From a virus: a stretch of DNA of 23,097 bases. Below the pieces are notes generated by a model, which had not been told where the DNA came from, did not search any database, and saw only the letters and a program-made list of their open reading frames with translations. How positions within the stretch are numbered: the first letter of the stretch is position 1; each line of letters starts with the position of its first letter. The translations under genes were made by a program, and so were the position numbers. The stretch spans positions 1 to 23,097 of IMG/VR virus record IMGVR_UViG_3300032053_000547; one strand, given 5' to 3'. Shown piece after piece: positions 1,443 through 23,097 of the stretch.

Positions 1443-3245
1443 TTGGCTATTGGACTTCGGTCTGTCGGGGCTAGTCCGGGGGCGAATTCTGCAAACTGTA
1501 TAATTACTAAGCCCTCGGGTCTTTCCCTCGGCGACTTCATATTGGCGCATATCGTCAATAAGGCCACGTCCGGGACCATCACGCCGCCAGCCGACTGGAT
1601 GATAATCGGGGCACAGTCCAATACGGCAAGCTCCCGATCGGCACTATTCCGGAAAGTAGCAGTTCAGGCCGATGTTGATGCCACGACCTTCACTTTTACT
1701 CTCGGCACATCGGGGCGAAACCGGGGAGAGATGATGGCCCTGACGGGCGTCTCTACATCCGCCCCGATTGACGTAGCAAACCAGCAAATCAACGGGGCCG
1801 GAACCTCGATAGCCGTCCCCACCCCGACGGTCACAACGGGTTGCCTGGTTTTAGTTATCGGCAGCAATGCCTTGGGCGGGGTGGCGACCGCGTGCTCCGG
1901 GGCCGACCCAGCTTGTACCATTACCATAGGTTATGCCGTTGCCTATAGTACGTATTGTGCGTTGGCCTGCTTCAGCGGAATAAAGTCGGGAACGGATGCC
2001 ATCGATGCCCATTCACTAAGCACCTTCACGTCTGCTGTTAGCAGCGGGCACGCGGTAGCATTGGCTCCACAACCCGCCCCCGAAGAACATTCCGGCGCTG
2101 CCCTAATCCACGGGAATGGAACCATAACCCCAGTAGTCCAAAAGAATGGGAAGGGATCTGCCCTAGCCTCAGGGAATGGTTCCCTGGCGGGCATTGTTCA
2201 AAAGGCTGGCCTGGGTTCTGCGATAGCATCGGGGAAGGGAGCGCTCGTTGCCTTAGGTACGGTTGCCCTGATGGGGCTTGCTAGTCTCTCCGGTGGTCCT
2301 GGTCATCAAATCGCGGCGGGCCTAAAGACTTCTCAGAATATCTCGGCCATTTCCGGAGGCGGCTCGCTTACCGCAACGGGTGAGGCGAGCATTGCTCCTG
2401 AAGAACACTCCGGAGTGGCGGCGATCTCGGGAACTGGGATTCTCACATCATCGGGCGCAAAGGCAACCTCTATCTCGGCGTCGATCTCCGGTGCAGGATC
2501 GCTTATCGGGGACGGTCTCAAGGCGGCAGCTGACCTGGGAGCCATACACGCCAATGGTTCCCTTGTTGCAACCGGAACGGCCGTTGAATTTCATTCCGGG
2601 GCGGCCGCCCTATCTGGAGGGGGCGCTGCTTCCGGGATCGGGCTTAAGGCTGGCTCGATCACGGCAGGGCCAATCTCGGGGAGTGGTTCCCAGGTGGCCA
2701 ATGGGGCGAAGGCTGGATTTGCGATTGCCGGGATGACCGGAGGTGGTTCACTCTCCGCAACCGGGGAAGCTAGCGGGGTCGAACACCATTCCGGGGCTGC
2801 GGCCATATCCGGTAGCGGCTCACTTTCATCCGCGGGAATAAAAGACGGCAAGGATTCTACGGCGATCTCCGGTAACGGGACCTTGATCACCTCTGGGGCA
2901 AAAGCTGTTTCTTCGACCGCCTCAATCTCGAAGGCCGGGGCATTAACCTCAATGGGGCAGAAGGCCGTAGCCGGTTTAGCAATGATCTCGGGCAATGGTT
3001 CTATTATTGCAACCGGCGAAGAAGCCAAACCGGAAGATTATTTTGGTGTCGCTCTTATTTCCGGCGGTTGCTATTTGACCGCGTCGGGAACTGCATGGTG
3101 GTACGATCAAAGCAAAAGAAAGATTAACCGAAGAGCATCTATTAGAACAGGACAATCAATTCGTCCAATGCGATCAGTCCAGCCAGCTCGTCCTTTGAAA
3201 AGACCAACGGTAAGAAAGAAAACCACCAGGAGAAATTATCCGTGA
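1443..3245 (+). CDS. Repeat-rich virion surface protein (about 16 glycine-rich repeats, basic C-terminus)
   Basis: A 600-residue protein starting at TTG 1443, chosen because AAGGAG lies 6 bases upstream. Residues 1 to about 205 form a beta-rich domain of a common type ('KPSGLSLGDFILAHIV...TPPADW...TFTL...'). Residues 216 to 553 are about 16 units of 20-21 residues with consensus xxAISGxGSLxATGxKA. The last 47 residues switch to an arginine/lysine-rich tail (16 basic, 1 acidic, e.g. RKINRRASIR). There are no catalytic motifs. Repeats of this kind are seen in phage surface and fibre proteins; each unit may form one strand pair of a beta structure, which is inference. Its 3' end overlaps the next gene by 4 bases (GTGA). 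Placement among head genes favours a head fibre or decoration protein over a tail fibre. Confidence 0.6.
   Translation: MAIGLRSVGASPGANSANCIITKPSGLSLGDFILAHIVNKATSGTITPPADWMIIGAQSNTASSRSALFRKVAVQADVDATTFTFTLGTSGRNRGEMMALTGVSTSAPIDVANQQINGAGTSIAVPTPTVTTGCLVLVIGSNALGGVATACSGADPACTITIGYAVAYSTYCALACFSGIKSGTDAIDAHSLSTFTSAVSSGHAVALAPQPAPEEHSGAALIHGNGTITPVVQKNGKGSALASGNGSLAGIVQKAGLGSAIASGKGALVALGTVALMGLASLSGGPGHQIAAGLKTSQNISAISGGGSLTATGEASIAPEEHSGVAAISGTGILTSSGAKATSISASISGAGSLIGDGLKAAADLGAIHANGSLVATGTAVEFHSGAAALSGGGAASGIGLKAGSITAGPISGSGSQVANGAKAGFAIAGMTGGGSLSATGEASGVEHHSGAAAISGSGSLSSAGIKDGKDSTAISGNGTLITSGAKAVSSTASISKAGALTSMGQKAVAGLAMISGNGSIIATGEEAKPEDYFGVALISGGCYLTASGTAWWYDQSKRKINRRASIRTGQSIRPMRSVQPARPLKRPTVRKKTTRRNYP
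2088..3103 (+). repeat. Degenerate coding tandem repeat, ~63-bp units in higher-order blocks
   Basis: About 16 units of roughly 60-65 bases encode the A-I-S-G-x-G-S-L motif. Block starts are marked by a His-Ser-Gly codon trio (CAT/CAC TCC GGN) at 2088, 2406, 2592 and 2787, and by a diverged form (Tyr-Phe-Gly) at 3039. The blocks therefore span 5, 3, 3 and 4 units. The DNA has diverged while the protein motif is kept, which suggests selection on the protein rather than recent slippage. Confidence 0.8.
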
Positions 3246-4165
3246 AAAAACTGGCCCTGATCCCGATGAAGAAGCGAATCGCGGAGATCCAATCCGTCTA
3301 CGCTTCGGCGGCACAGAGGATTGTTGTGGCTCTATCTTCATTAGAACCGGATAGTTATACGGCGGTGAAGTCAGGCACGGTTCTGTCTCGGGTTAAGGAT
3401 ATTATCGGCGAACTCGATACGGCTGTCCAGATGTGGGCTCCGGGCGCGATCCGGGCGGCCTACGAGGAAAGCAAGGGCATGGCCTGGACACGGCTTGAGA
3501 TGATCGGCGCGAAGCGGCTCCCGACGAATAGATATAACCCGGTTCGGCACGATAAGAAGATCGCCGCGTTGACGAAGACCGTCATGAATGATTATTGGAA
3601 GGCGAATCGGACTATCGAAAGGACGGCGCGGAAATACTTGGCCGTTGTGTCTCAGGCGGCTATGGGCATAAAAAAGGTCGAACAGATACAGATGTTCGAT
3701 TCGGCAACCGTCAAAGGATTCATAAACCGCATGGTCGCGGCGTCGGTATCGGCAACGACCAAATACAACGTCGGCATGGCGCACCTTACGTCCAAGGATA
3801 TCGCCGCGAAGATCAGGGCGAAACTACTGAGTCAATTAAGCGGGGAGAATTTTATTACCATCAACGACCGTGATTACAATCTGCGCTCCTATGCGGAGCT
3901 TGTTGCCCGGACGAGGATGCGCGAGTCTCAAACAGAGGCAACTCTTGAGAGCATGAAGGAGTTCGGTGAGGACCTTGTAGAAATTCCGAGGCACGATAAC
4001 CCATGTAAGGAAATCTGCGCTCCATACCAGGGTCAGATTTATTCGATATCCGGCAATTCCAGCAAATACGAAAAGCTTCCGGACGGAGGCCCCCCCTGGC
4101 ACCCTTGCTGTGAAGATATTTGTAATCCTGTTTCCGAGAACGCGTTGGCTTGGAGAAACCGTTGA
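3242..4165 (+). CDS. Phage minor capsid protein, MuF / SPP1 gp7-like head morphogenesis type
   Basis: A 307-residue protein from GTG 3242, which overlaps the previous stop (GTGA) and has GGAG upstream. Residues 1 to about 200 are mainly helical and basic. The C-terminal part carries the MuF-type signature: YAELVARTRMRES (217-229), then C255 and C259, the segment YQGQIYSISG (262-271), and PPWHPCCEDIC (284-294). In this family the conserved Cys/His cluster (here H287, C289, C290, C294) is thought to bind metal. These proteins sit near the portal inside the head and take part in head assembly or DNA ejection. A family of minor capsid protein 2 (Phage_min_cap2) is the closest match. Unusually, it follows the capsid and connector genes instead of preceding them. 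Confidence 0.75.
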   Translation: MKKLALIPMKKRIAEIQSVYASAAQRIVVALSSLEPDSYTAVKSGTVLSRVKDIIGELDTAVQMWAPGAIRAAYEESKGMAWTRLEMIGAKRLPTNRYNPVRHDKKIAALTKTVMNDYWKANRTIERTARKYLAVVSQAAMGIKKVEQIQMFDSATVKGFINRMVAASVSATTKYNVGMAHLTSKDIAAKIRAKLLSQLSGENFITINDRDYNLRSYAELVARTRMRESQTEATLESMKEFGEDLVEIPRHDNPCKEICAPYQGQIYSISGNSSKYEKLPDGGPPWHPCCEDICNPVSENALAWRNR

Positions 4166-6614: not shown

Positions 6615-9600
6615 ATGGCATTCGATGGGGGCGCCGTAATCGGCCGTCTCGAGATGAATATCGCCGGCTGGCAAAAAGCCGTAGAGACGGTCAAGAAAGA
6701 CCAGACCAGTCTGTCCGGGCTAGTCTTGCGGCATGAGCAGGGAATTAAAAATCTCGGCAAAGCATTCACTGTGGCGGGCGGCATCATGGTCGCTTCCCTC
6801 GGGGCGTTGATTAAAAAGACGGCCGATGCTGGCGATCAGATCAATGACCTTTCCCAGCGCACGGGGATCGCTACGGAGACCCTGAGTGGGTATAAACTCG
6901 CGGCGGATAAGAGCGGGACATCGCTCGAAAGTTTCGCACAGGGTATGCGTGGTCTCGCAAATACCATGCAGGCCGCAATGGATAAGAGTAGTGCTCAGGC
7001 TAAGATGTTCGATGCTATGGGCGTCTCCATCGTCGACAGTAGCGGAAAACTGAGACCCCTCAACGACGTGATGCTCGACGTAGCGGACCGATTCGCCTCT
7101 ATGCCTGACGGAGCCGAGAAGACCGCCCTAGCTATGGACGTACTCGGGCGCGCGGGCATGGAGCTCATCCCCATGTTCAATATGGGAAAGCAAGGCCTCT
7201 TGGATAACTATGAGGCCACGAAGAAATTAGGGGGGATATGGTCAAAGGAGGCGGCGAAGGCGGCTGATGATTTCAACGATTCCATAGCCCAAATGAAAAC
7301 ATCAATGGGCGGTTTAACCAAGGAAATCGGCATGATATTTTTGCCGACCGCCAAAAAGGTCGTTGACGGTCTTACCGATATCATCTCCAAGTTTAGGGAA
7401 TGGGCGGCTGAACATCCAGGGGCGATCGCGACAATTGGGGGGATGACTGTTGGCCTAGGAGCCCTTCTAACTCAAGTGGGGCCACTATTAGTTGCCCTGC
7501 CAAGGTTGATTGAATTATTTAAGCTTCTCAAAATAACAAGGGCGGGCGCACTTACGGGGGGCGCTGTTGGTATTTTAGCGGCTGTTGGTATCGCGGGTAT
7601 CGCCGAAACTGTAAAGAATCTGAAACTCTATAACCAGGAGGCCGAACTTACGGGGAAGAAAACTCCCGCTGTTATCAGGCTCATAGAAAGTTTCAATATG
7701 GCTCTGGCAAAAATTGGTATCGGCGTGGATCGTAGCCGCGTTGTCATGAAGGGTTTCGCCGATACGGAATTGATGAACACAAGAAAGGGGTTGGAACTTG
7801 CGGGGTTATCTACTGAAACCCTAACTACTGCAAACGCGAATCTGGGTCAGAGTTATATGCGTCTTATTGAACCAGTAAAGGCCTGGAACGAGGTGCTGGG
7901 GGTCATGACCAGGTTAGATCTTGCAAATAAAATTGCCCTCATGGAGCAGGCACTTGCGAAATATAAGGCTCAAATGCCGATATCCGAGCAGGCGCGATTG
8001 ACCGAGGAGATTAAAAAGGCCAAAGACGAACTCGCAGGTTTCAATATTACGGCCCAAGTTACGCTCGGACTCTTGCCCAATCTCAGGGATAACACAGAGA
8101 AATTCATCACAAGCCTCGACAAATGGAATAGCTTTCTCCCGAATCTTCGGGCTGAAACCGAAAAACTTTTTATAACCTGGGATGAATATACTGAAAAATC
8201 TTCCAGCAAAATGGAGGCCATGAGCGAGGATGTTACTTCCGCGGGTGAAAAGATTTCGATCACGATAGCAAATATGATTGGGGCTATCGCTGGGACGATA
8301 GGTCAAAATCTTAGTGCCGCAAAACAAAAGTTTTTGATGCTTGTTCAAACAATGATTCTGGGCGCGGTTCAAATATGCGTCGCGTTAGGAACAATCAAGG
8401 CCGCCACTGGGGACATTATTGGAGCTATCGTTGCGATGGCCGGAGCTATTTTCGCCGCACTATTCGGGGGGAAACCAAAAAAGACATATGCCGAGAGAAT
8501 GGCCGAAGAAATTATCATGATGACAAAGGAGCAGATTTCCATTCTATCCAAATACGGGGAAGTATCAGAAAGCACTTCTCAGAAGATAGCAGAAGCCCGA
8601 CAGAAAGGAATGGAAGGTTATGCGGCCATCTCTAAATACTTCGCCGATATCATTCGGGATACGGGGGTCACCGGGGAGAATATCAACAAACTCTGGGCGG
8701 GCGCTGGAGAGATCCTTGATTCGATAAAGAAAGGCGGATTGAGTGCGGCCGAAGGAATCAAGTCCTTGGGTGATTCCTTTACGGCCATGCTCGAGGGCGC
8801 AAAGAAACTCGGTCAAGAGGGTTCCAGGGCGATGGTCGATTTCATTAAGAAAATCCGGGAATCCGGCCTCGAGGTTGCCGAGATTACCCAATATGTTGTT
8901 GAACAATTAAGCAAAATTCCGGCCGCCATGAGTACGATCGTTAGTTCCATAGCGATGCCCACTAAATCGATCGAGGAAATGCGGGCGGAACTCGATATCC
9001 TTTACAAGAAATTATCTGAGGTCAAAGAGGGATCGACAGAATGGAACGCTCTTAATGAGCAAATCAAAACCTCGGAAAAAGAGCTGGGTAAATGGGAGGG
9101 AAGAATCCCCGGTGTCATAAATCATCTTAATGCTATGGCCGGCATAGCAACGCTTACCTTCCAGAGCCTCATCCAAAACGGGAAGACATACATCGAAGCC
9201 CTGGAGATGATGAAGGGGCCGCTTCAGGCGATGATAGATCGCTACAGGAAATTCGGGGTCGCAATTCCGGACGCGTTGAAGCCGATGGTTGCACTGATGC
9301 ATACGATGGAGAAATTCCCGGCCATCTTCGAACGACTCGGCGCCGCACAGACGATTTTAACAAGCCTTAGAAACGCTGGATATTTGACCCAGCAAAGTTT
9401 TAGTGCCTTAGCGAGCTATGCCACCGCCGCCGCCAAGGCAATTCTGGGTGTCAGGGGTAATTTAAATTCTTTTATGGATACCGCAAAGTTGAGTAATGCT
9501 CAAATTGAACAACTCTTACCGATTGTGGCTCAGTTCGTCGGCGCCGCGGCAACCTTTGGATTAACCGTTCCCACATGGATGAAGACCTTTGTAACAAAAC

Positions 9601-10076
9601 AGTTGGGGGTGGACTGGGAAAAATTTAAGGAAACAGCCGCGGCCCAAGCTAACGCGGGAATAGCTACCGTAGAAAAACTGAAACTGATGCTCGACGCCCA
9701 GAAAACCTATGATTCAAGAATGAAGGATAGATTTAATACTCTTAGGATAGGAATACGCGACAAACTCGATTTCGTGATTGCCGCAATCAAGGGACTTCCT
9801 CAGGCTGCGACTGGTGCTTATTTTCCGAAACCTGCATTGGTTCATGTGGCGGAAAAGGGACCCGAATGGATTTTCAATAAACCGCAAATATTGAATCTTG
9901 CGGGCGCGGGCGGGGGAACAAGCCGAGACGTGAATCTGACTTTTAATATCAATACCATCGATAACGAGGGAATGAAAACGACCATCGTTAAAAAAATTAT
10001 CCCGATCATGACTCAGGTATTTCGGGGGAACACGAATCAATTGACAACAAACTTCAAAAAGGAATTGGGGATATAG
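6615..10076 (+). CDS. Tail tape measure protein
   Basis: A 1153-residue protein, by far the longest in the window. The N-terminal part has the PhageMin_Tail pattern (GDQINDLSQRTGIATETLSG, then ALDVLGRAGMELIPMF-type segments around residues 75-195). Hydrophobic stretches lie at about 270-295, 312-335 and 550-620 (IIGAIVAMAGAIFAALFGG), as is usual for tape measures that may insert in membranes at DNA entry. Long helical, charged stretches fill the rest. The C-terminus ends with DVNLTFNINTIDNEGMKTTI, a common tape-measure ending. At the generally observed ratio of about 0.15 nm tail per residue this would give a tail near 170 nm. No lysozyme or peptidase domain was recognised. It starts 2 bases after the chaperone stop. 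Confidence 0.9.
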   Translation: MAFDGGAVIGRLEMNIAGWQKAVETVKKDQTSLSGLVLRHEQGIKNLGKAFTVAGGIMVASLGALIKKTADAGDQINDLSQRTGIATETLSGYKLAADKSGTSLESFAQGMRGLANTMQAAMDKSSAQAKMFDAMGVSIVDSSGKLRPLNDVMLDVADRFASMPDGAEKTALAMDVLGRAGMELIPMFNMGKQGLLDNYEATKKLGGIWSKEAAKAADDFNDSIAQMKTSMGGLTKEIGMIFLPTAKKVVDGLTDIISKFREWAAEHPGAIATIGGMTVGLGALLTQVGPLLVALPRLIELFKLLKITRAGALTGGAVGILAAVGIAGIAETVKNLKLYNQEAELTGKKTPAVIRLIESFNMALAKIGIGVDRSRVVMKGFADTELMNTRKGLELAGLSTETLTTANANLGQSYMRLIEPVKAWNEVLGVMTRLDLANKIALMEQALAKYKAQMPISEQARLTEEIKKAKDELAGFNITAQVTLGLLPNLRDNTEKFITSLDKWNSFLPNLRAETEKLFITWDEYTEKSSSKMEAMSEDVTSAGEKISITIANMIGAIAGTIGQNLSAAKQKFLMLVQTMILGAVQICVALGTIKAATGDIIGAIVAMAGAIFAALFGGKPKKTYAERMAEEIIMMTKEQISILSKYGEVSESTSQKIAEARQKGMEGYAAISKYFADIIRDTGVTGENINKLWAGAGEILDSIKKGGLSAAEGIKSLGDSFTAMLEGAKKLGQEGSRAMVDFIKKIRESGLEVAEITQYVVEQLSKIPAAMSTIVSSIAMPTKSIEEMRAELDILYKKLSEVKEGSTEWNALNEQIKTSEKELGKWEGRIPGVINHLNAMAGIATLTFQSLIQNGKTYIEALEMMKGPLQAMIDRYRKFGVAIPDALKPMVALMHTMEKFPAIFERLGAAQTILTSLRNAGYLTQQSFSALASYATAAAKAILGVRGNLNSFMDTAKLSNAQIEQLLPIVAQFVGAAATFGLTVPTWMKTFVTKQLGVDWEKFKETAAAQANAGIATVEKLKLMLDAQKTYDSRMKDRFNTLRIGIRDKLDFVIAAIKGLPQAATGAYFPKPALVHVAEKGPEWIFNKPQILNLAGAGGGTSRDVNLTFNINTIDNEGMKTTIVKKIIPIMTQVFRGNTNQLTTNFKKELGI

Positions 10077-10077
10077 C

Positions 10078-10872
10078 ATGAATACGCTTTATGTTAAGGG
10101 GAATTTTGTCAATGTAAATACTTTAATTTCAGTCACCTCCGAAGACCCGGTTTATGTTAAGGAGTGGATGTACAATCGAAGGCAATCGAAGCCACTTAGG
10201 TTCATGGCCAAAAGTGGGAATCAAATCCTCATGGGTGATGGGGTCACAAGGATATCACCGACTATCGCCGCAATTATGAATCACAACCTGGCCGGTACGA
10301 GTGGCGGCGGTGCCTTCCTTTGCAAGATTAAGGGGGATGATAATAACCCACCGGTAGGTGGTTGGGATGCTCCAGCCTATTCGAGAGACATAGCTTGGCA
10401 CACCCTCAATATGTTCAAACTCCTCGATGGTGCGCCGAGTTTTTATTATTGGCTTTTGGATATAGACGATTTTGACAACGCACTGGCTGGATGTAACATC
10501 GGGGAGTTCATTCTCCATACCTGGGCGGCCTTTCCGAGAAATTATGCCCCCGGTTCCCAAAATGCCGCCGAATATATTCAGTTTGATAATGAGACTCCTT
10601 ATAAACAGCGGTGGCGGGCGTTCGGGGCAAAGAGGAAAACATTCAATATTAGTTTCCACGGCATAACCAACACTCAAGTGGTCTCGGAAATGGAAGCCAT
10701 GTTCGATGATCTTGACGGAATTCATCCCTTCATTTTCATCCCGGATAGCGCTGAGCCAGATTGTTGGTATGTCGAATGTCCCGGTATTTTGACTGTCGAT
10801 CGCGAATGTAAAAACGTCAATAATTTTTCTCTTGAACTTTTTGAGCAAACCCGGGGAATAACAATCTTATGA
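10078..10872 (+). CDS. Distal tail / tail tip protein
   Basis: A 264-residue protein directly after the tape measure, one base past its stop. Aromatic- and acid-rich, with segments such as DGAPSFYYWLLDIDDFDNALAG and HPFIFIPDSAEPDCWYVECPG. It has an N-terminal beta region (PLRFMAKSGNQILMGDGV) that resembles the 'ilD' and 'nhNl' segments of tail tip proteins seen in Gram-negative siphoviruses (IAAIMNHNLAG). Position between tape measure and fibre/hub genes supports a distal-tail role, linking the tube to the tip. The family is not firmly recognised. Its stop overlaps the next start as ATGA. Confidence 0.55.
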   Translation: MNTLYVKGNFVNVNTLISVTSEDPVYVKEWMYNRRQSKPLRFMAKSGNQILMGDGVTRISPTIAAIMNHNLAGTSGGGAFLCKIKGDDNNPPVGGWDAPAYSRDIAWHTLNMFKLLDGAPSFYYWLLDIDDFDNALAGCNIGEFILHTWAAFPRNYAPGSQNAAEYIQFDNETPYKQRWRAFGAKRKTFNISFHGITNTQVVSEMEAMFDDLDGIHPFIFIPDSAEPDCWYVECPGILTVDRECKNVNNFSLELFEQTRGITIL

Positions 10873-12050
10873 ACGTTGTCGATAAAATCAAGGAGTTGAT
10901 GACTCAGATCAAGAGTCTGTGGGGCGCGATCACGGACCTTCAGGACGGCGTTGATATAGCTGGATCGCATGATCTTCTTTCCTCGACCCATCCCGATACC
11001 ACGGTCGGATCGCCCGTACGCGGTGATCTTGTCACGGGCCAGAATGTAAGTCCAGTTTGGAAGAAAAAGGCACTTGGAACGACGGGGAAGGTCGTTCAAT
11101 CGGACGGTTCGGATGTTATCTATGATGACGTTGCCTGGGCGAATGTAAAAAAGGTAGGATCGAGCATAGCCGATCTTGCGACCCATTCCCATGCTGTACT
11201 GTCGGGGATCGGTGAAGATGACCATCACAATAAGGTTCACGCCCTCGATAGCACGACCGAACATTCGGCGCTTTCAAATAATACCGATCATAATGTCAGC
11301 ATTACCAAACATGGTTTATGTCCCCTATTACCGAATGATGATACTAAGTTTTTGAGCGGAAAGGGAACGTGGCTTCCGGGAGGGGGAGGAGGTGCCGGTG
11401 CTACTTTTGATCCCGATGAATTCCCGGCTTCGCCGACTTCTCAGTCGGATCATTTTGACGATGCCTCAATAGATGTTAAATGGGTGGCATGGCAAGCGGG
11501 CGGCAATCTAACCGTTGCAGAATCGAATCATCATTTGGTTTATACGAATACGGGGGATAATGCCTACACATGGAGAGGGCATTTCCAGGCACTCCCGGCG
11601 GGTGATTTCACAATAGAGGTGAAGGTCAATCCTATATTTCCGTTCGCTAATTATCTTTCCGTCGGACTGGCCCTCTATCAAGACGCAACTAATAATCCCA
11701 ATACTACCGATGTGTTTGCCTATACTTGCGAGATGGCGTTGGGAACACCACAGACTCGTGTCACATATCTAAACGCCTACAATTCCTGGGGCTATAGTCC
11801 CTCAGACATGGTACATTCAAATTATTGTCCTTCCTATCTAAGGATTCGGCGAAGCGGAACGACCCTTTATTTCGATCATAGCACTAACGGTATCCAATGG
11901 CTTCAGCAATATACGGTCGCTCAACCCTTTGCCGCCGCGGAGATGGGATTGATTATGTGGAATTACGCTAACGCCGTAACCGGGATTGCCCTGTTCGATT
12001 GGTTTTATTATCTCGGTAGTAATTCACTCATATCTCCGGTGGGAGCATAA
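10869..12050 (+). CDS. Tail fibre protein with lectin-like C-terminal domain
   Basis: A 393-residue protein. Residues 1-30 form a likely coiled coil. Residues about 33-90 hold a common phage fibre module (HDLLSSTHPDTTVGSPVRGD, then ALGTTGKVVQSDGSD). Residues about 105-145 are His-rich with an HSH motif and GIGEDDHHNKVHALD; HxH motifs in other fibres (T4 gp37) bind metal along a trimer axis. A hinge of PGGGGGAG follows (about 170-178). The C-terminal ~210 residues are a beta sandwich of the concanavalin-like/DUF1349 type: GDFTIEVKVNP, YLRIRRSGTTLYFDHSTNG. This suggests glycan binding for host recognition. The domain calls are by pattern; the receptor is unknown. Confidence 0.65.
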   Translation: MNVVDKIKELMTQIKSLWGAITDLQDGVDIAGSHDLLSSTHPDTTVGSPVRGDLVTGQNVSPVWKKKALGTTGKVVQSDGSDVIYDDVAWANVKKVGSSIADLATHSHAVLSGIGEDDHHNKVHALDSTTEHSALSNNTDHNVSITKHGLCPLLPNDDTKFLSGKGTWLPGGGGGAGATFDPDEFPASPTSQSDHFDDASIDVKWVAWQAGGNLTVAESNHHLVYTNTGDNAYTWRGHFQALPAGDFTIEVKVNPIFPFANYLSVGLALYQDATNNPNTTDVFAYTCEMALGTPQTRVTYLNAYNSWGYSPSDMVHSNYCPSYLRIRRSGTTLYFDHSTNGIQWLQQYTVAQPFAAAEMGLIMWNYANAVTGIALFDWFYYLGSNSLISPVGA

Positions 12051-15083: not shown

Positions 15084-16268
15084 ATGAATATCAGAAAATG
15101 GCTTTGCGGAATCGCCAGAAAGAATAAATGGAAGACACTCAAAAATCTGTGTCAATGTGACAAATATTATCCTATCCCCGAACCTGAACCGATCCGTCCG
15201 GCTCCGCCGGAGCCACCTATCCCGCCCGAACCGCCACCTCCACCTCCACCTCCTCCTAAACCCGAACGTCCGGACGCACTTATTGGGACCAGCCACTATC
15301 AGATGATGGAATGTAAACTCGCTGATATCGATTGGTTCCTGGACGAGGGCTATTATTCCGGCTGGACCGCAACCGAAGCCTTCACAAGTTATACTTGGTC
15401 AAGAGGGGTTAATTGGCAGCCCTACATAAATGTCGGGACGGCCACGGAGCCAATGTTCAATTACACAAAAGAGCATGAAAATCCGGCCTACTTTGAGAAA
15501 CTCGAATATATCATGACCGGATGCGCGAAACGGGATACAGCTCTGGTTATCAGGCTTCTCGATTACTGTTCTGTCGCAAATCCAGATTACTATGAAAAGT
15601 TATGCTGGCACCACAGCGTTCAGAAAACGAACTGGCAGGATGTTCAGCATAAGGCTTGGGGCGGATTCTATGGCCACGGACCCCGGCCCTATTACTCGGC
15701 CTTTATGAAGCGGATCGTCGGCCTGGCAGCGAAGACGAAATGCCGGGTGATCTACCACGCCGTCAATGAGGCCGGATACAAACCCAGTAAAAAGGAACTG
15801 GCCGGCTGGCTCTTGAAACTCAAAAGCCCGACGGCAATGAAAGATAAGATCATTCTGGAATTTCACCAATGGATGGCCGATGAACTGAGGCGACTCGGAG
15901 CGAAGTTGTCGATCATCAGCACCAATTTGGACTACGTCAAAAACAGAGAATGGGCGGCCGCTAACGGGATTTATTTCGAGGTTCATGGATGTAATTCTCC
16001 CGAGCGGCTAACCGAGGTTTTCAAATTAGGGAAAACCTACATGGCGAACGGGGACGGTCCTGATAAGTTGGCTAAAGGTCGGCAGGGCGATAAGCCGGAG
16101 AAGCGGGAGCCTTCAGTTTCCCAGGGAACAGAGATGGGTCAAATCCTGAAAGCAGGGAAGAAGCCTATGTATCTCTACTACAATCGTAATGCGGAGAACC
16201 CGCTTCCATCCGATATTCGACGGGCAAGGTTCGATGTTCTGAAAGCGATAGTAAAAGCGATGATCTGA
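15084..16268 (+). CDS. Glycoside hydrolase-like TIM-barrel protein with proline-rich linker
   Basis: A 394-residue protein. Residues 1-28 are basic with several Cys; 30-63 form a proline-rich linker ending in nine prolines; 64-394 resemble a TIM barrel of the cellulase superfamily (clan GH-A). The sequence RVIYHAVNEAGY puts N228-E229 where clan GH-A has its acid/base Asn-Glu after strand 4. YFEVHG (E299) fits the nucleophile after strand 7. Strand-like segments DTALVIRLLD and KLSIISTNL support the fold. No signal peptide is present. Placed among tail tip genes, it may degrade host surface polysaccharide, or be a lysis enzyme since no other is seen here. The substrate is not predictable. The strand order is inferred and the catalytic pair is unproven. 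Confidence 0.55.
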   Translation: MNIRKWLCGIARKNKWKTLKNLCQCDKYYPIPEPEPIRPAPPEPPIPPEPPPPPPPPPKPERPDALIGTSHYQMMECKLADIDWFLDEGYYSGWTATEAFTSYTWSRGVNWQPYINVGTATEPMFNYTKEHENPAYFEKLEYIMTGCAKRDTALVIRLLDYCSVANPDYYEKLCWHHSVQKTNWQDVQHKAWGGFYGHGPRPYYSAFMKRIVGLAAKTKCRVIYHAVNEAGYKPSKKELAGWLLKLKSPTAMKDKIILEFHQWMADELRRLGAKLSIISTNLDYVKNREWAAANGIYFEVHGCNSPERLTEVFKLGKTYMANGDGPDKLAKGRQGDKPEKREPSVSQGTEMGQILKAGKKPMYLYYNRNAENPLPSDIRRARFDVLKAIVKAMI

Positions 16269-18004
16269 TGTCCAACTATATCGTCGATCCGGTCAATGGA
16301 GCCGATCCGAATAGCGGCCTTACAGAATCCACGGCCTGGAAAACTCTCCTCAAAGCATCCGATACTCTCATTGCCGGGGATACTGCCCGGTTACGGGGCG
16401 GACCCTATCTACCGAATGATGGGAATGTCGGACTCCGAACCAAGCGGAACGGCGCCGCCGGAGCACCGATAACCTTTAGAAATTATGGGGCCGAGATAGT
16501 TACGATCAAGGGACAATTTATCGGGGTAATGGTTGATCATAGTTTCATTGCCCTGAAAGGCCTCGCCGTAATCAACGACAACCAAGGGGCAATGGAAACT
16601 GGAATTTGTCACTGGTTCGATCATGGACAGATCAGCAATGTGACGGTTGAGGACTGTGTAGTCAGAAACATGAAACCCGGAGATCCATCTCATGGGATTC
16701 GGTTGGAGGGCGTTTCCTATGCGGTAGTTCGGAGATGCATAATGGACCATATCGGGACCGCCCCTCAACCAGGCCCAGAGGGCGGAAACGGACTGTGGAT
16801 AACCGGAAATTATTGTCTTGTTGAAGATAATCAGGTTGATTTCTGCGGCCACGCCGGATTGTTCTTAATGGGAGACAGGGTTGTTGCCAGGAGAAATAAT
16901 TTTAATGGGACTTGGGGGGTATGCGCGGAATATCTCTGCTATAACACGACTAATTTCCGATCATTGATCGAGGACAACATTTTGAGAAACGCGTCTGGTC
17001 TGCAAGATGGCCTATGGAGAGACCCCGCCTGGGAACAGATGGGGAGCGGAACGATATTCAGGCGGAACAGAATTTATCGCGGAGTCGGAGCAGCTTTCCA
17101 GATTTATTCGCGTCAGGATTACCAATCAAAGCATAATAGATTTTATCACAATGTCGCCTACGATTGCGGAGGAGTCCCGCCTCCGAGCTATCTCTGCGCG
17201 CCTTATGAGATTCAGGAGGACGTCGCTGGGACTCAAGGTGATAATATCTCCGTAAACAACATCCATTTTTTCAACAAGAGAAACGACCGGGCGACTTTCG
17301 CGGGGACAGGCAATCAAGCTGTTCTCGTTTTCCTGGTCAATTCATGGAACGATACGGACCCGATGTTTCGAGACCCGGCTAGCGGTGATTTTCGGCTCTG
17401 CGCCGGAAGCCCCTGCATTGACACCGGGCAATTCCTGACAAAGCTCCGCTCAAACGGATCGGGGCGGACGCTTGAGGTCGAGGACGCCGGGTATTTTTGT
17501 GACGGATGGGGGATCGTTGAGGGGGACTATATCCAACTCGAAGGCACGGACGAGGCTATCCAGATTGCCTCGATTGACTATGCAAATAACATCATAACCT
17601 TGAAAGAAGGCGCCTCATGGCAGGTCGGCCAGGGAGTCTCATTGCCCTTCCTTGGCACTAAGCCAGATATAGGTGCATTTGAATACTTAGGAGGAATCAT
17701 GCCAAAAAGCATTGATATCATTTTGAACATTCAGGGAATCCCCGACTATTCTATAGTGGCGGATAAACAATCAGCTTCTTTCCAGCGCGGACAAAGTGCA
17801 ACATTCAAGATCACGGCTTCAGGGATAGATGGGTATAACAAACCAATCCCATTATCTATTTCAGGATTACCCCCGAATGTGACCGCTCAGTTTTCACCAA
17901 CCTCGATATGGCCGGGGGAGGAATCCATATTGACCATTATGTCCACGGTGGCAGCCATTCCTGGTGCTTACACAATAAATGTAAAAGGGCCAGATATAAG
18001 CTAA
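16268..18004 (+). CDS. Beta-helix tailspike with C-terminal Ig-like domain
   Basis: A 578-residue protein whose ATG overlaps the previous TGA by one base. Residues 1 to about 400 show right-handed beta-helix features: repeated short strands with Asn-rich turns (VTVEDCVVRNM, CLVEDNQVDFCG, VVARRNNFNG, GTIFRRNRIYRG). An opening of 'YIVDPVNGADPNSGLT' and a later 'FRLCAGSPCIDTG' with 'PDIGAFEY' (467-474) are typical of the choice-of-anchor Q / pectate-lyase-like family. Residues 478-578 form an Ig-like domain (LSISGLPPNVTAQFSP, then GEESILTIMSTVA). The likely role is a tailspike that binds or cleaves host surface glycan. The active site could not be located. A strong ribosome site occurs inside the gene, at 17688-17701. 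Confidence 0.7.
   Translation: MSNYIVDPVNGADPNSGLTESTAWKTLLKASDTLIAGDTARLRGGPYLPNDGNVGLRTKRNGAAGAPITFRNYGAEIVTIKGQFIGVMVDHSFIALKGLAVINDNQGAMETGICHWFDHGQISNVTVEDCVVRNMKPGDPSHGIRLEGVSYAVVRRCIMDHIGTAPQPGPEGGNGLWITGNYCLVEDNQVDFCGHAGLFLMGDRVVARRNNFNGTWGVCAEYLCYNTTNFRSLIEDNILRNASGLQDGLWRDPAWEQMGSGTIFRRNRIYRGVGAAFQIYSRQDYQSKHNRFYHNVAYDCGGVPPPSYLCAPYEIQEDVAGTQGDNISVNNIHFFNKRNDRATFAGTGNQAVLVFLVNSWNDTDPMFRDPASGDFRLCAGSPCIDTGQFLTKLRSNGSGRTLEVEDAGYFCDGWGIVEGDYIQLEGTDEAIQIASIDYANNIITLKEGASWQVGQGVSLPFLGTKPDIGAFEYLGGIMPKSIDIILNIQGIPDYSIVADKQSASFQRGQSATFKITASGIDGYNKPIPLSISGLPPNVTAQFSPTSIWPGEESILTIMSTVAAIPGAYTINVKGPDIS
17688..17701 (+). promoter_or_regulatory. Internal ribosome-binding site with in-frame ATG in the tailspike gene
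   Basis: TTAGGAGG (17688-17695) precedes an in-frame ATG at 17699-17701, codon 478 of the tailspike. The site lies exactly where the 'PDIGAFEY' ending of the beta-helix family meets the Ig-like domain, and would give a separate 101-residue Ig-like product. Either it is used, or it is a relic of two fused genes. Confidence 0.5.
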
Positions 18005-18358: not shown

Positions 18359-19450
18359 TTACATTCCTGCCTTATTTTCAGGATTAAAATTGTGACTGTG
18401 CCCAAAAATGTGCCCAAGGCCTTGGACTGCTCGGTGCTTCCTTTCCCGATCTGTGTGCGAGTAAATTAGGCTTGTATAGGCCTTAGAATGCCCCAGAATC
18501 TCCGCGATCGTAACGATATCAACGCCGGACTCAAGGAGACTCGTCGTGAAGCAGTGCCTCAATAGATGAAAATGAAAGTCGATCCCGGTTTCGCGCCTGA
18601 TGATTTCCGTAGTGCGCCTAAAAATTCCCTGGTTGCGCCGATTCTGTGAGCCCAGATCAAAGATAAATTCCGTGGTGCGGGGTTGACTTAGGATTATCTT
18701 TTTCGCCGTCTCGTTGAGGGGGATCATTCTATCCTTGGCTCCCTTCCCGGTCACCAGAATTTCATCCCCGGCCAATCTATCCCAGCGCAGATTTATGACT
18801 TCGCTTTTTCTCATGCCGGTGTTGAGTGCGAGAATGACCATATCATAGAATTTCGATTGAAGCGGAGACTGGGGATTTCCCGCGATCCGCCGGCATACGG
18901 CCAAAATCTTCTCAATCTCCGCAGCCGTCAGCGCCCTCATTGAGGATGTTGTTTTATAGAATTTGATTTTCCTCAAAGGATTGGGCCCGGGATGCAGACC
19001 CCAATCTATGGCCCGATAGAACATTGTCCGAAGCAATTGCAGATAAATGTTGATCGTCGATTTGGAAAGCTTCTTATCTTCAGCCGGAGCGCGCGGCTTC
19101 CTGAATCTGCTTTTATCCTTGAGGTAAGACCGGAAATTTTCTATGGTCAGAGTCGAGATATCGGATAGATAGATTATAGAATTCGTCTCGAGAAACTTCT
19201 GGAATCGTTTTATGCGGACGATCTCGCAGGGCACGGTTGAGGGCTTAGTCGTCCAGGCCCAGGCGATGTATTGCTTGAAAAAGGCATCGATCGTTATCCG
19301 GCCTTGCTGATGTTCTGCCAGGAGTTCATTTCGCTTGTCCTGGAATCGGTCTAAGGCTTCAGATTTATTGTCGGTCTTGAGAGATTGCCGATAGCGTTTG
19401 CCCTTAATGCGGATATCGAGATAGAATCGTTTGCCGCGGCGACGAAGCAT
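18359..19450 (-). CDS. int: Tyrosine-type site-specific integrase
   Basis: A 363-residue phage integrase. Residues 1-55 form the arm-binding domain (KRFYLDIRIKGKRYRQSLKT), about 56-165 the SAM-like core-binding domain, and about 170-345 the catalytic domain. The catalytic residues are visible: R214 (LNTGMRKSEVINLRW), Lys in GKGAKDR (K236 or K239), H295 and R298 (HFHLLRH), H321 (LGHS) and nucleophile Y330 (YSHTD). All are intact, so the enzyme should be active. It would join phage and host attachment sites to form the prophage. It begins 2 bases after the lipoprotein stop (TAAGGATG), so it is the last gene of the leftward operon. The gene end points at the likely attP region. Confidence 0.95.
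   Translation of the reverse strand: MLRRRGKRFYLDIRIKGKRYRQSLKTDNKSEALDRFQDKRNELLAEHQQGRITIDAFFKQYIAWAWTTKPSTVPCEIVRIKRFQKFLETNSIIYLSDISTLTIENFRSYLKDKSRFRKPRAPAEDKKLSKSTINIYLQLLRTMFYRAIDWGLHPGPNPLRKIKFYKTTSSMRALTAAEIEKILAVCRRIAGNPQSPLQSKFYDMVILALNTGMRKSEVINLRWDRLAGDEILVTGKGAKDRMIPLNETAKKIILSQPRTTEFIFDLGSQNRRNQGIFRRTTEIIRRETGIDFHFHLLRHCFTTSLLESGVDIVTIAEILGHSKAYTSLIYSHTDRERKHRAVQGLGHIFGHSHNFNPENKAGM
18397..18415. promoter_or_regulatory. Candidate integrase arm-type sites, right pair, inside the integrase 3' end
   Basis: TGTGCCCAAA (18397) and TGTGCCCAAG (18409) lie 12 bases apart inside the integrase gene, where the other strand encodes GHIFGH. Their match with the non-coding pair at 18189-18206 argues that they are more than a coding accident. 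Overlap of an integrase gene with its attachment region is known in temperate phages. Confidence 0.4.
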
Positions 19451-21388: not shown

Positions 21389-22427
21389 AGACCAACAGGA
21401 ATTAGTCAAGGTTCAAAACGGGGGGGTGAAGAAGGACGTCCTTGGATTGACCGCGGATTTCGGCATAGTTTATACGAAAGTCCAGGAGGGTCAGATCATG
21501 GCTCCTATCCGTGCTGATATGACGCTCTATGAAAAGCTGGGTCATATTTACAAGCAAAAGGACAAATATCCGATAACGGGTCCGGGATACAGATATCTCA
21601 ACAAGGTGGCCTCCATTTCGCTCGTTACGCCTCAGTCCGTTATCGTCGATGGTCGACCGGTCCCGAATCCGCATATCGAAAGGAATCCCAAAACCAAATC
21701 CGTCGAAAGCGTCAACATCCGTAAAATGGGAATCGGGTATTCTCCGGCCGGGAATATTGTCGTCATCGACAAGACGCTTTTCTATAACGTCTACACCTAT
21801 TTCATTCAAAGCATTCAGGCGAAGATGAAAAGGGTCGTGTGGGCGAGCGGCAAGCCGACTGACGCAAAGGAATTTCCAGATTGCGCGGTTTATGGAACCG
21901 CCGACGAGCGGCCAACCAAACCGGGAAAGTGGGCCTTTTATTTAACTGAGGACCCTATCGGCATTTGGATCAACTATGAGAGCCCGGCCATTATTGACTG
22001 CCTAGAGGAACATACGCAAAGGCAGCGCTTCGGGGACCGCATAGCGGCAACGATTGTTGAAAGGAACATTCTCAAGGACCATCCGGCAATCGCCGTTTCC
22101 CAGGTTTTCTATCGGGAAACAACGCTCGGAGTCCAAGCGACCGTGACGGTCCACGGCTGGAGAAACGATAATACGCCACGGAATCTAGCGGCTATTATGC
22201 GACAGGCTGAAAGTGGAAAAGAATCTGGCGATTTTCATGATGCTATAGAAGTCAAGGCCGAAACCATTGTCGATCTTGAAGCCGAAGAGGAAATCGAGGC
22301 CAGGAAAGAAGCCTCTGAGATTGAGATGGACACGTTGCAGCCCGAAGATATGGGAGATCCAGCCAAGGACAAAGAGCCGCCGGCTGCCTTTTTTGAGAAA
22401 CAAGCGAAGGAAAAGGCGAAGAAGTGA
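21369..22427 (+). CDS. Putative single-strand annealing recombinase (RecT-like)
   Basis: A 352-residue protein after a strong AAGGAGG site. The first 260 residues are a compact alpha/beta domain with segments such as ADMTLYEKLGHIYKQKDKYP and TQRQRFGDRIAATIVERNIL (about 217-236), then LKDHPAIAVSQVF. The motif 'A..rAerni.k.hP' near the C-terminal part of the core recalls the RecT/Red-beta type. The last ~85 residues are charged and probably flexible (EAEEEIEARKEASEIEMD). A RecB-type exonuclease follows at once, the usual partner of phage annealing proteins (exonuclease plus SSAP). Without a search the family call is mainly from context. Confidence 0.5.
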   Translation: METKKPKDQQELVKVQNGGVKKDVLGLTADFGIVYTKVQEGQIMAPIRADMTLYEKLGHIYKQKDKYPITGPGYRYLNKVASISLVTPQSVIVDGRPVPNPHIERNPKTKSVESVNIRKMGIGYSPAGNIVVIDKTLFYNVYTYFIQSIQAKMKRVVWASGKPTDAKEFPDCAVYGTADERPTKPGKWAFYLTEDPIGIWINYESPAIIDCLEEHTQRQRFGDRIAATIVERNILKDHPAIAVSQVFYRETTLGVQATVTVHGWRNDNTPRNLAAIMRQAESGKESGDFHDAIEVKAETIVDLEAEEEIEARKEASEIEMDTLQPEDMGDPAKDKEPPAAFFEKQAKEKAKK

Positions 22428-23097
22428 TGGAAACTCAAACGATCACCACGGAAAAAGTCCTGTCACAAAAGCCTTCCGAAGATCGAATCCTTCTCGAGCA
22501 ATTGAGTGAGATCGGCGCGGAAATAGAGATGAAGCTAGATGCAGAACTTGAACGCAAAGAGAATGAAAAAGGCGGACCCTATCCTCATGATGAATGGAAT
22601 TGGGCGAGTGAGATCCATCATCCCTGTAAAAAGAATCTCGTTCATACTCGTCTTGATTGGACCCAGAAAAAGCCTATGGACCTCCGGGCCCTTTGGAGAA
22701 TCAAAGAGGGGAATGAAATCGAGCGTCAAACGAAAGCCAACCTCAGCATCATAGGCTTTGAGCTCATTGAGAATCAGAAGCGGTTTACGCTTGAGGAGTC
22801 GAGAATCAGCGGTAGGATCGACGGTCTAGCGCCATTGAATAGAAAGCTGGGCGACCCATTCGCTTCGGTCAAGACCATCCCTGCGGAAATCAAGTCGATC
22901 AATCCGAACTACTGGGACAGCACAAAGACGATCGACGATATCCGTTCTCACCGCGGCTGGTGGATCAGAAAGTATCCGGCGCAGCTCAACCTATACAACC
23001 TCATGAATGATTGCCCGGGCGGCTTCCTTATTCTTGTGACCTTCGGAAAGCGGCCCCGGGTCCTTCCGATGCTATTGGATTATGACCTGGCTGATGC
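22427..23097 (+). CDS. RecB-type PD-(D/E)XK exonuclease (partial, cut at window end)
   Basis: At least 223 residues, open to the right edge. Its ATG overlaps the previous TGA by one base (TGATG). The catalytic centre is clear: GRIDG (D132), AEIKS (E154 and K156), and a Q-x3-Y motif QLNLY (Q186, Y190), the mark of the RecB-like exonuclease branch. The N-terminal SEIHHPCKKNLVHTRLDW is the 'hy.S.l..C.rk.vy.rl' segment of Cas4/RecB-like nucleases; C67 might be the first ligand of an iron-sulphur cluster if three more Cys follow beyond the window. It should resect double-strand ends for the annealing protein upstream. The rest of the gene is missing. Confidence 0.85.
   Translation, partial: METQTITTEKVLSQKPSEDRILLEQLSEIGAEIEMKLDAELERKENEKGGPYPHDEWNWASEIHHPCKKNLVHTRLDWTQKKPMDLRALWRIKEGNEIERQTKANLSIIGFELIENQKRFTLEESRISGRIDGLAPLNRKLGDPFASVKTIPAEIKSINPNYWDSTKTIDDIRSHRGWWIRKYPAQLNLYNLMNDCPGGFLILVTFGKRPRVLPMLLDYDLAD

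Follow-up and report, generated by a model that had tools for sequence, protein, structure and literature searches.

We propose, with a probability of a little under 0.6, that the open reading frame at positions 1443-3245 specifies an adhesin: an accessory fibre on the virion of a temperate, long-tailed phage. This fibre would have three parts (an N-terminal domain, a repeat array and a C-terminal tail) and would probably be positioned at the head-tail junction via a Gp80-family protein. The window, i.e. the whole stretch of DNA analysed, is a viral record of 23,097 bases that carries a series of head and tail genes and, in addition, an integrase gene. Judged from sequence comparisons, some phages have a cassette consisting of a small gene and the fibre gene and other, otherwise similar ones lack it, and the N-terminal domain, repeats and tail recombine. 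The comparisons also suggest that the family of the small protein goes with the repeat type, among related phages and with one exception in a further check. The features are as follows.

597-1064, +, head-tail adaptor Ad1-like gene (phrog_477, E 1.5e-4)
1074-1433, +, small Gp80-family protein of 119 aa, proposed fibre base (PF23140, phrog_240)
1432-1437, +, ribosome-binding site AAGGAG ahead of the TTG start (from the sequence)
1443-3245, +, putative fibre gene, an open reading frame of 600 aa with a TTG start
1443-2072, +, N-terminal domain (aa 1-210), common to unrelated phages
2088-2405, +, repeat block 1, opened by HSG, 5 units (two degenerate, by eye)
2406-2591, +, repeat block 2, opened by HSG, 3 units
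2592-2786, +, repeat block 3, opened by HSG, 3 units
2787-3038, +, repeat block 4, opened by HSG, 4 units
3039-3101, +, final single unit, opened by YFG
3102-3242, +, basic C-terminal tail of 47 aa with 16 K/R, going with phage backbone B1 (see below)
3228-3232, +, Shine-Dalgarno sequence AGGAG for the next gene, within tail codons
3242-4165, +, minor capsid protein (Phage_min_cap2 / MuF-like; PF06152 3.9e-10, phrog_4611 3e-27)

The cassette and its neighbourhood

The GTG start of the minor capsid gene overlaps the stop of the fibre gene. Further downstream are genes for a connector, a tail terminator, a tape measure protein (6615-10076) and a beta-helix protein (16268-18004), and an integrase gene lies on the minus strand (18359-19450). 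The sequence-only reading had assigned the fibre gene to a head module, and the matches of its neighbours to Ad1, Gp80/head protein, minor capsid protein 2, connector, tail terminator and tape measure agree with that assignment. A prophage-made surface or secreted protein that alters the host cell and forms no part of the virion would also be accessory, present or absent at one site, and the phage does carry an integrase; but the overlap with the minor capsid start, the position among structural genes and the absence of a signal peptide by eye make this reading very improbable.

Other genes were seen around this module. An open frame running off the window end (22424-23095) matched the Cas4-domain exonuclease phrog_1990. 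Methyltransferase/glycosyltransferase-like genes (PF13578, PF00535, PF13704, PF01075) were found at 71-595 of the window, at 1673-3280 and 4357-5142 of L001 and at 3025-4404 of L002; these genes precede the adaptor gene in this group of phages and perhaps act on virion or host glycans. At the position of the window's tape measure gene, L007 has an open frame (10634-11413) with a NUMOD3 motif, which is of the homing endonuclease type.

Relatives of the window's minor capsid protein were found at six places in 4 of the 142 genomes of the class to which the L022 genome belongs. Five of the six places were read in context (L041 was left out). In four of these five backbone-like regions (L042, L043, L044 and L046) the cassette is absent and the Ad1-like gene is followed directly by the minor capsid gene. 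In the fifth, L045, a small gene and a fibre gene precede the adaptor gene, and this fibre combines 22-aa repeats and a basic tail with another kind of N-terminal domain. The cassette is likewise ahead of Ad1 in L003, and it lies between Ad1 and MuF in the window, L001, L002 and L007. Being absent from similar regions, the cassette looks dispensable. On the basis of the binning of L022 and the regions in bacterial genomes, these phages may infect Aminicenantes-like bacteria; the proposal, if true, may also link phages to poorly cultured hosts of this type.

By profile matching, the gene ahead of the fibre gene is a member of the Gp80 neck-fibre/whisker family. It scored 44.7 bits against PF23140 (Gp80; cut-off 27) and E 1.8e-24 against phrog_240. 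Searched alone against the PDB, it matched 9c39_K at 0.0054 and 8jou_a at 0.033; with a profile of eight sequences (the gene plus seven relatives, of which three come from other phages), the values became 1e-4 and 1.3e-10, respectively. 8jou_a is the GP4 protein, described in the paper on phage LSH1 as a fibril joining an adhesin to the tail collar (PMC13243795). 9c39_K is a neck chain of Sf14, in which, as far as the accessible text goes, whiskers of gp30 and gp31 are tied to the neck by an adaptor protein (PMC11821841). Because the neighbour gene is a neck-family member, we infer a neck position for the fibre, which would be part of the virion; the Gp80-family protein would mount the fibre there.

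The repeat array and the N-terminal domain

In the window protein, HSG occurs at residues 216, 322, 384 and 449, and YFG opens a fifth block at residue 533. A unit profile recognised 14 units of 20 residues, and two more degenerate units were found by eye at about residues 261 and 281, giving about 16 units in blocks of 5, 3, 3, 4 and 1. The sequence-only reading had described about 16 units in HSG-opened blocks of 5, 3, 3 and 4; this description was accurate, and the YFG-opened single unit is to be added. Because the profile was seeded from the protein's own units, shuffled sequences were needed as a control: 500 shuffles of the repeat region gave a mean of 0.35 and a maximum of 3 units. As an independent measure, self-identity per lag over residues 206-553 showed its maximum at lag 20 (0.26). 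In the full-length AlphaFold model, which is of low confidence (mean pLDDT 48), the repeats appeared as short strands without a long helix. The fibre shaft probably consists of 20-residue repeats forming beta-hairpins.

The same profile detected 15 units in L001, 15 in L002, 14 in L003 and 9 in L004, 3 in the truncated L015, and none in L005, L007, L013 and L019, whose proteins have 22-aa repeats or are repeat-free. Alignment of the relatives showed gains and losses of one or two whole units. The notion of a repeat fibre with variable unit number fits these counts. The related expectation that relatives carry the repeats stood for L001-L004 and failed for some close relatives, which have different repeats or none, and for some similar phages, which lack the gene. 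Tandem Repeats Finder detected no tandem DNA repeat within 1443-3245, and direct DNA repeats in the gene were short only and mostly diverged. The lack of a tandem DNA repeat argues that the array is not the product of recent expansion; a slippage-prone DNA repeat was ruled out on the same ground. The number of units would set the reach of the fibre.

Residues 1-210 constitute a separate non-repeat domain, which did not figure in the sequence-only reading. Searching the phage collection with the full protein returned one record, and with the N-terminal domain nine records at E <= 1, all weak matches (best E 4e-3). Among viral sequences, 7 loci matched the protein and 15, an overlapping set, matched the N-terminal domain profile; an extra contig, L022, titled Candidatus Aminicenantes MAG, was also found. 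L009-L012 and L016 duplicate L001, L005, L006, L007 and L002, and L017, L020 and L021 are truncated and lack the full fibre. The N-terminal domains of the relatives are 74-97% identical to that of the window protein (14 aligned). The domain is followed by 20-aa units of the GSG type in L001-L004 and L015, by 22-aa units (AEGxQxQxSDxPALTQTH) unrelated to the 20-aa ones in L005-L007, L013, L014, L017, L018 and L022, and by no repeats at all in L019.

The genes around these fibres differ. Adaptor and minor capsid genes are common to the window, L001, L002 and L007 (backbone B1), and L003 has distant versions of them. L013, L014, L017, L018, L020 and L022 have a second gene set in common, and L004, L005/L006, L015, L019 and L021 stand apart from both groups. 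DNA similarity between groups typically extends from about -15 (the ribosome-binding site) to about +620 (the end of the N-terminal domain). In L017 and L019 it begins at about +1, and several other loci have similar upstream sequence around the ribosome-binding site. In a tree of 14 N-terminal domains, four changes are required to account for the four B1 members, and strongly supported branches enforce each of them; neither repeat type occupies one side of a branch, and each needs at least 2 changes. dN/dS was 0.05-0.10 for the N-terminal domain (6 pairs), 0.21-0.27 for the repeats (3 pairs) and 0.35-0.71 for the tail (6 pairs).

The AlphaFold model of the N-terminal domain (mean pLDDT 60) has fair confidence in residues 1-110 only, where it shows beta structure. 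Foldseek found no match to this model below E 0.1, and a PDB sequence search with the domain profile gave no credible match (best E 0.14). VIA-align returned Z scores of at most 4.2, within the uninformative range of the tool, to Tuc2009 tripod, BclA, C1q, collagen-binding and other chains; the top score, from the low-confidence model, was to a chain of 5e7t (the Tuc2009 baseplate tripod) over residues 1-100. phrog_13624, annotated 'hydrolase', was matched in L007, L013 and L015 only over its positions 14 to 167-232 of 651, and was not matched in the window protein. Weak relatives of the domain occur in open frames of bacterial genomes and within a minor tail protein. A further domain, of VDNxGAW type (by eye), follows the GSG repeats in L015 (5001-6221) and is N-terminal in L045 (5232-7007); given these different placements, domains shift position within these fibres.

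Small-protein type and repeat period

Loci with 22-aa shafts have another small gene, termed M-type. This gene had no Pfam match in L007, L013, L018 and L022 and no PHROG match in L007 and L013, and hhalign detected no relation to the Gp80 family (probability 0.4%, with thin profiles). The pairing of small gene and repeat type was noted on the loci then in hand, before loci were collected by their small proteins; its 20/22 form was first seen in the data of 106 loci. These included 79 M-type loci (80 of 120 matched M-type relatives had been taken in) and 27 G-type loci, i.e. those with a Gp80-family small gene; truncated L017 was left out, so that 106 of 107 loci were used. The downstream protein was taken as the longest forward frame starting between 40 bases before and 400 bases after the end of the small gene, and repeats were called at a self-identity of at least 0.25 that was also above all shuffles, a threshold of our choice.

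A downstream protein of at least 200 aa was present in 58 loci and absent in 48, some of which are contig ends. Removal of 10 near-copies at 90% left 48 proteins, 32 with repeats and 16 without. Among the M-type matches listed, the period was 22 aa in 20 of the 22 repeat-bearing proteins, 21 in one and 33 in one; in the G-type set it was 20 aa in 8 of the 10 repeat-bearing proteins and 33 in the other two. Among the 106 loci, no M-type gene was found with 20-aa repeats and no G-type gene with 22-aa repeats. Fisher's exact test on type versus period gave 3.2e-7, and 4.9e-5 after removal of seven loci known beforehand (of 28; 16 and 5 remained, with no crossing), both values being optimistic because the loci are related. 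Collapsed on N-terminal clusters (12 and 5, two clusters having both types), the value was 1.6e-4, likewise optimistic and dependent on a cluster threshold of our choice, since looser clustering merges many N-terminal domains into one superfamily.

A tentative interpretation, which we regard as possible rather than probable, is a widespread system in which base and shaft are matched. Of two small neck families, one would take shafts with 20 residues per unit and the other shafts with 22, with the period as a code for the base; the C-terminal half would serve as the anchor, and the tip would be exchanged freely between unrelated phages. Our preferred reading of the fibre goes less far: its repeat/C-terminal half would pair with the small base protein, and the N-terminal domain, traded among phages, would serve as an exchangeable tip binding a host ligand. 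Against this reading stand the 16 of 48 downstream proteins without repeats and the occurrence of a 33-aa repeat after both small-gene types.

The association could instead reflect linkage only: two old gene pools would swap N-terminal domains but not their flanks, with no physical fit between base and shaft. The link between small gene and repeats, like that between tail and next gene (see below), may be plain genetic linkage. We hold this to be possible but doubtful. The small gene and the fibre gene are adjacent, the tail tracks the next gene, and one exception, Mahdia gp28, was met; but the N-terminal domain separates the two parts that co-vary, and both types occur with two of the N-terminal clusters. 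In addition, two proteins with a nearly identical C-terminal tail differ in repeat type: gp11 of Octadecabacter Antarctic DB virus 2 (DB2), where both M and G genes are present, has 22-aa repeats, and the protein of L035, with only a G gene in the DNA examined, has 20-aa repeats. In the DNA examined, L019, L033 and L034 have neither small gene, and their fibres have no repeats. Mae-JY22 combines 22-aa repeats with an M-type gene, which, however, lies downstream of the repeat gene with one gene between.

The further check covered 16 G-type loci of the phage collection, and 12 downstream proteins from 11 loci were measured. Five passed the repeat criterion and two were too short; Lutum, Gandalph gp23, Whirlwind, Itty13 and PBC5 failed it. 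Four of the five had 20-aa repeats: Magritte, Leaf, MT835599 (a faecal clone, not a cultured phage) and, marginally, Suerte, which was in both further checks and whose sequence had been seen before them. The fifth, Mahdia gp28, broke the rule with 22-aa repeats in a G-type locus. In five mycobacteriophages (ZoeJ, BabeRuth, Nibb, phiGD23-1 and MacnCheese) the G-type gene is followed by lysin A and not by a fibre, with a short gene intervening in two cases. The gene next to the Gp80 homologue of Erwinia phage phiEa21-4 encodes a prohead protease.

Several downstream proteins have features of their own. Strong 33-aa repeats (LVTGTVIGDVNLGATDNAVLDTIDAAIDAINAK) are encoded at L066:530-1678, L140:4390-5637 and L141:4383-5918, after both small-gene types. 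The proteins of L113 (4393-6558) and L123 (4393-6555) show a 14-residue periodicity in one stretch; by eye, these proteins resemble trimeric autotransporter head repeats. The 20-aa repeat protein encoded behind a Gp80-family gene in Gordonia phage Suerte (gp28, L030:5322-6695) has its basic stretch (by eye) at the N-terminus and not at the C-terminus.

The C-terminal tail, polarity and known neck fibres

The last 47 residues contain 16 K/R, as had been counted from the sequence alone, and 1 D/E. All four B1 phages retain the basic tail; among 28 repeat-bearing relatives, 12 have a net tail charge of at least +4, and in many it is absent or acidic. When 35 repeat-bearing proteins were clustered loosely, a shared tail went along with a shared next gene in 30 of 31 pairs (those with the next gene found), but a shared N-terminal domain cluster with a shared tail in only 28 of 232. 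The tail matches the next gene and not the N-terminal domain, and therefore goes with the backbone. In B1, the AGGAG of the minor capsid gene lies in the last fibre codons, and this stretch is nearly identical in the window, L001, L002 and L007. In the full-length model, the tail has a block pLDDT of about 32-52. The tail may be an anchor or just linked DNA. Derivation of the tail from the end of Ad1 was rejected, no resemblance being seen by eye.

The sequence-only reading had suggested a head fibre or decoration protein, with the basic tail perhaps as glue to DNA or capsid surface. Retention of a basic tail throughout B1 and the head genes nearby fit such an arrangement. However, the tail is weakly constrained (dN/dS as above), lacks a basic charge in many relatives, tracks the next gene and houses a Shine-Dalgarno sequence, so that its role as glue finds little support; the adjacent partner, moreover, belongs to a neck fibre/whisker family, which speaks against placement on the capsid. 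Pfam and PHROGs at E 0.1 gave no family for the 600-aa protein, a result that excludes nothing. We consider capsid decoration improbable. T4 Hoc and fibritin are dispensable fibres or decorations, and Hoc is bound by its C-terminus.

An accessory neck fibre closely comparable to the one proposed here is the neck passage structure (NPS) of lactococcal phages (936 group, TP901-1), which is also optional and modular. According to the available part of the source, it occurs in 73 of 113 phages, has a conserved N-terminus of about 180 residues joined to several kinds of remainder, with the N-terminus modelled as the anchor and the C-terminus as the tip, and was proposed to provide extra host binding (PMC6669499). 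Accessory presence in part of a set of similar phages, an NPS trait, was found here as well. In place of the predicted coiled-coil shaft of the NPS, there are 20-aa repeats weakly modelled as strands; as to its BppU-like N-terminal beta-sandwich, the best Z score here, obtained with a low-confidence model, was 4.2 to the 5e7t chain. The present system further differs in its separate small partner gene, in an N-terminal domain common to unrelated phages and in hints of opposite polarity.

From exchange patterns only, we infer that the repeat/C-terminal half faces the base and that the N-terminal domain is the distal, ligand-binding tip. If true, anchoring by the C-terminal half would be the reverse of most phage fibres. 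The same accessory neck fibre with the usual polarity, in which the conserved N-terminal domain is the anchor and repeats and tail point outward, is a serious alternative, though on balance an unlikely one. The N-terminal domain is the most constrained part (dN/dS 0.05-0.10); in the 936-phage NPS proteins, as far as the available text goes, it is the first ~180 residues that are nearly identical, with seven kinds of remainder (PMC6669499); DB2 gp11 and the neighbouring tailspike gp10 are alike in about their first 18 residues (by eye), a likeness typical of anchors; and residues 1-100 weakly resemble the Tuc2009 tripod chain. However, the domain is common to phages whose small base proteins look unrelated by comparison of (thin) profiles, and other domains take its place in loci with an unchanged small protein and repeat type. 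Its weak relatives in bacterial open frames and inside a minor tail protein also argue against the N-terminal domain as anchor.

Other systems show partial likeness to the proposed fibre. The gp80 fibre of Ralstonia phage GP4 (PF23140) and the Sf14 neck protein 9c39 are of the same family as the product of gene 1074-1433, but the repeat protein itself has no match, and no repeat fibre gene comes after the homologue in phiEa21-4. In Alishewanella phage LSH1, the accessory genes gp34-gp36 include one for a Gp80-like fibril protein and one for a putative adhesin, which is similar to the present arrangement; that adhesin is a lyase-like beta-helix, and the available part of the source describes no 20-aa repeats for it (PMC13243795). 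A limited literature search found no paper describing phage fibres with 20- or 22-residue repeats, which is a weak negative. In DB2 gp11, the N-terminal domain clusters with that of the window protein at a loose threshold and is followed by tandem repeats, with both small genes nearby; it differs in its 22-aa repeats and its Trp/Glu-rich tail, and between the window protein and L033-L035, which are related to gp11, the N-terminal domains show 19-24% identity. We found no virion proteomics for any member of the group, and none for DB2 gp11 in the available part of the Octadecabacter paper (PMC9239159).

If the proposal is true, unrelated phages exchange one adhesive tip among themselves, with shaft and mount remaining matched, and whether repeat length must fit the base protein becomes a defined biochemical question. 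A small neck gene beside a protein with 20- or 22-residue repeats would then be a recognition rule for unannotated accessory fibres. At least one such repeat protein carries a misleading name: DB2 gp11 (L031:7065-8591; MW805364) is annotated as ribonuclease E and actually consists of an N-terminal domain and 22-aa repeats.
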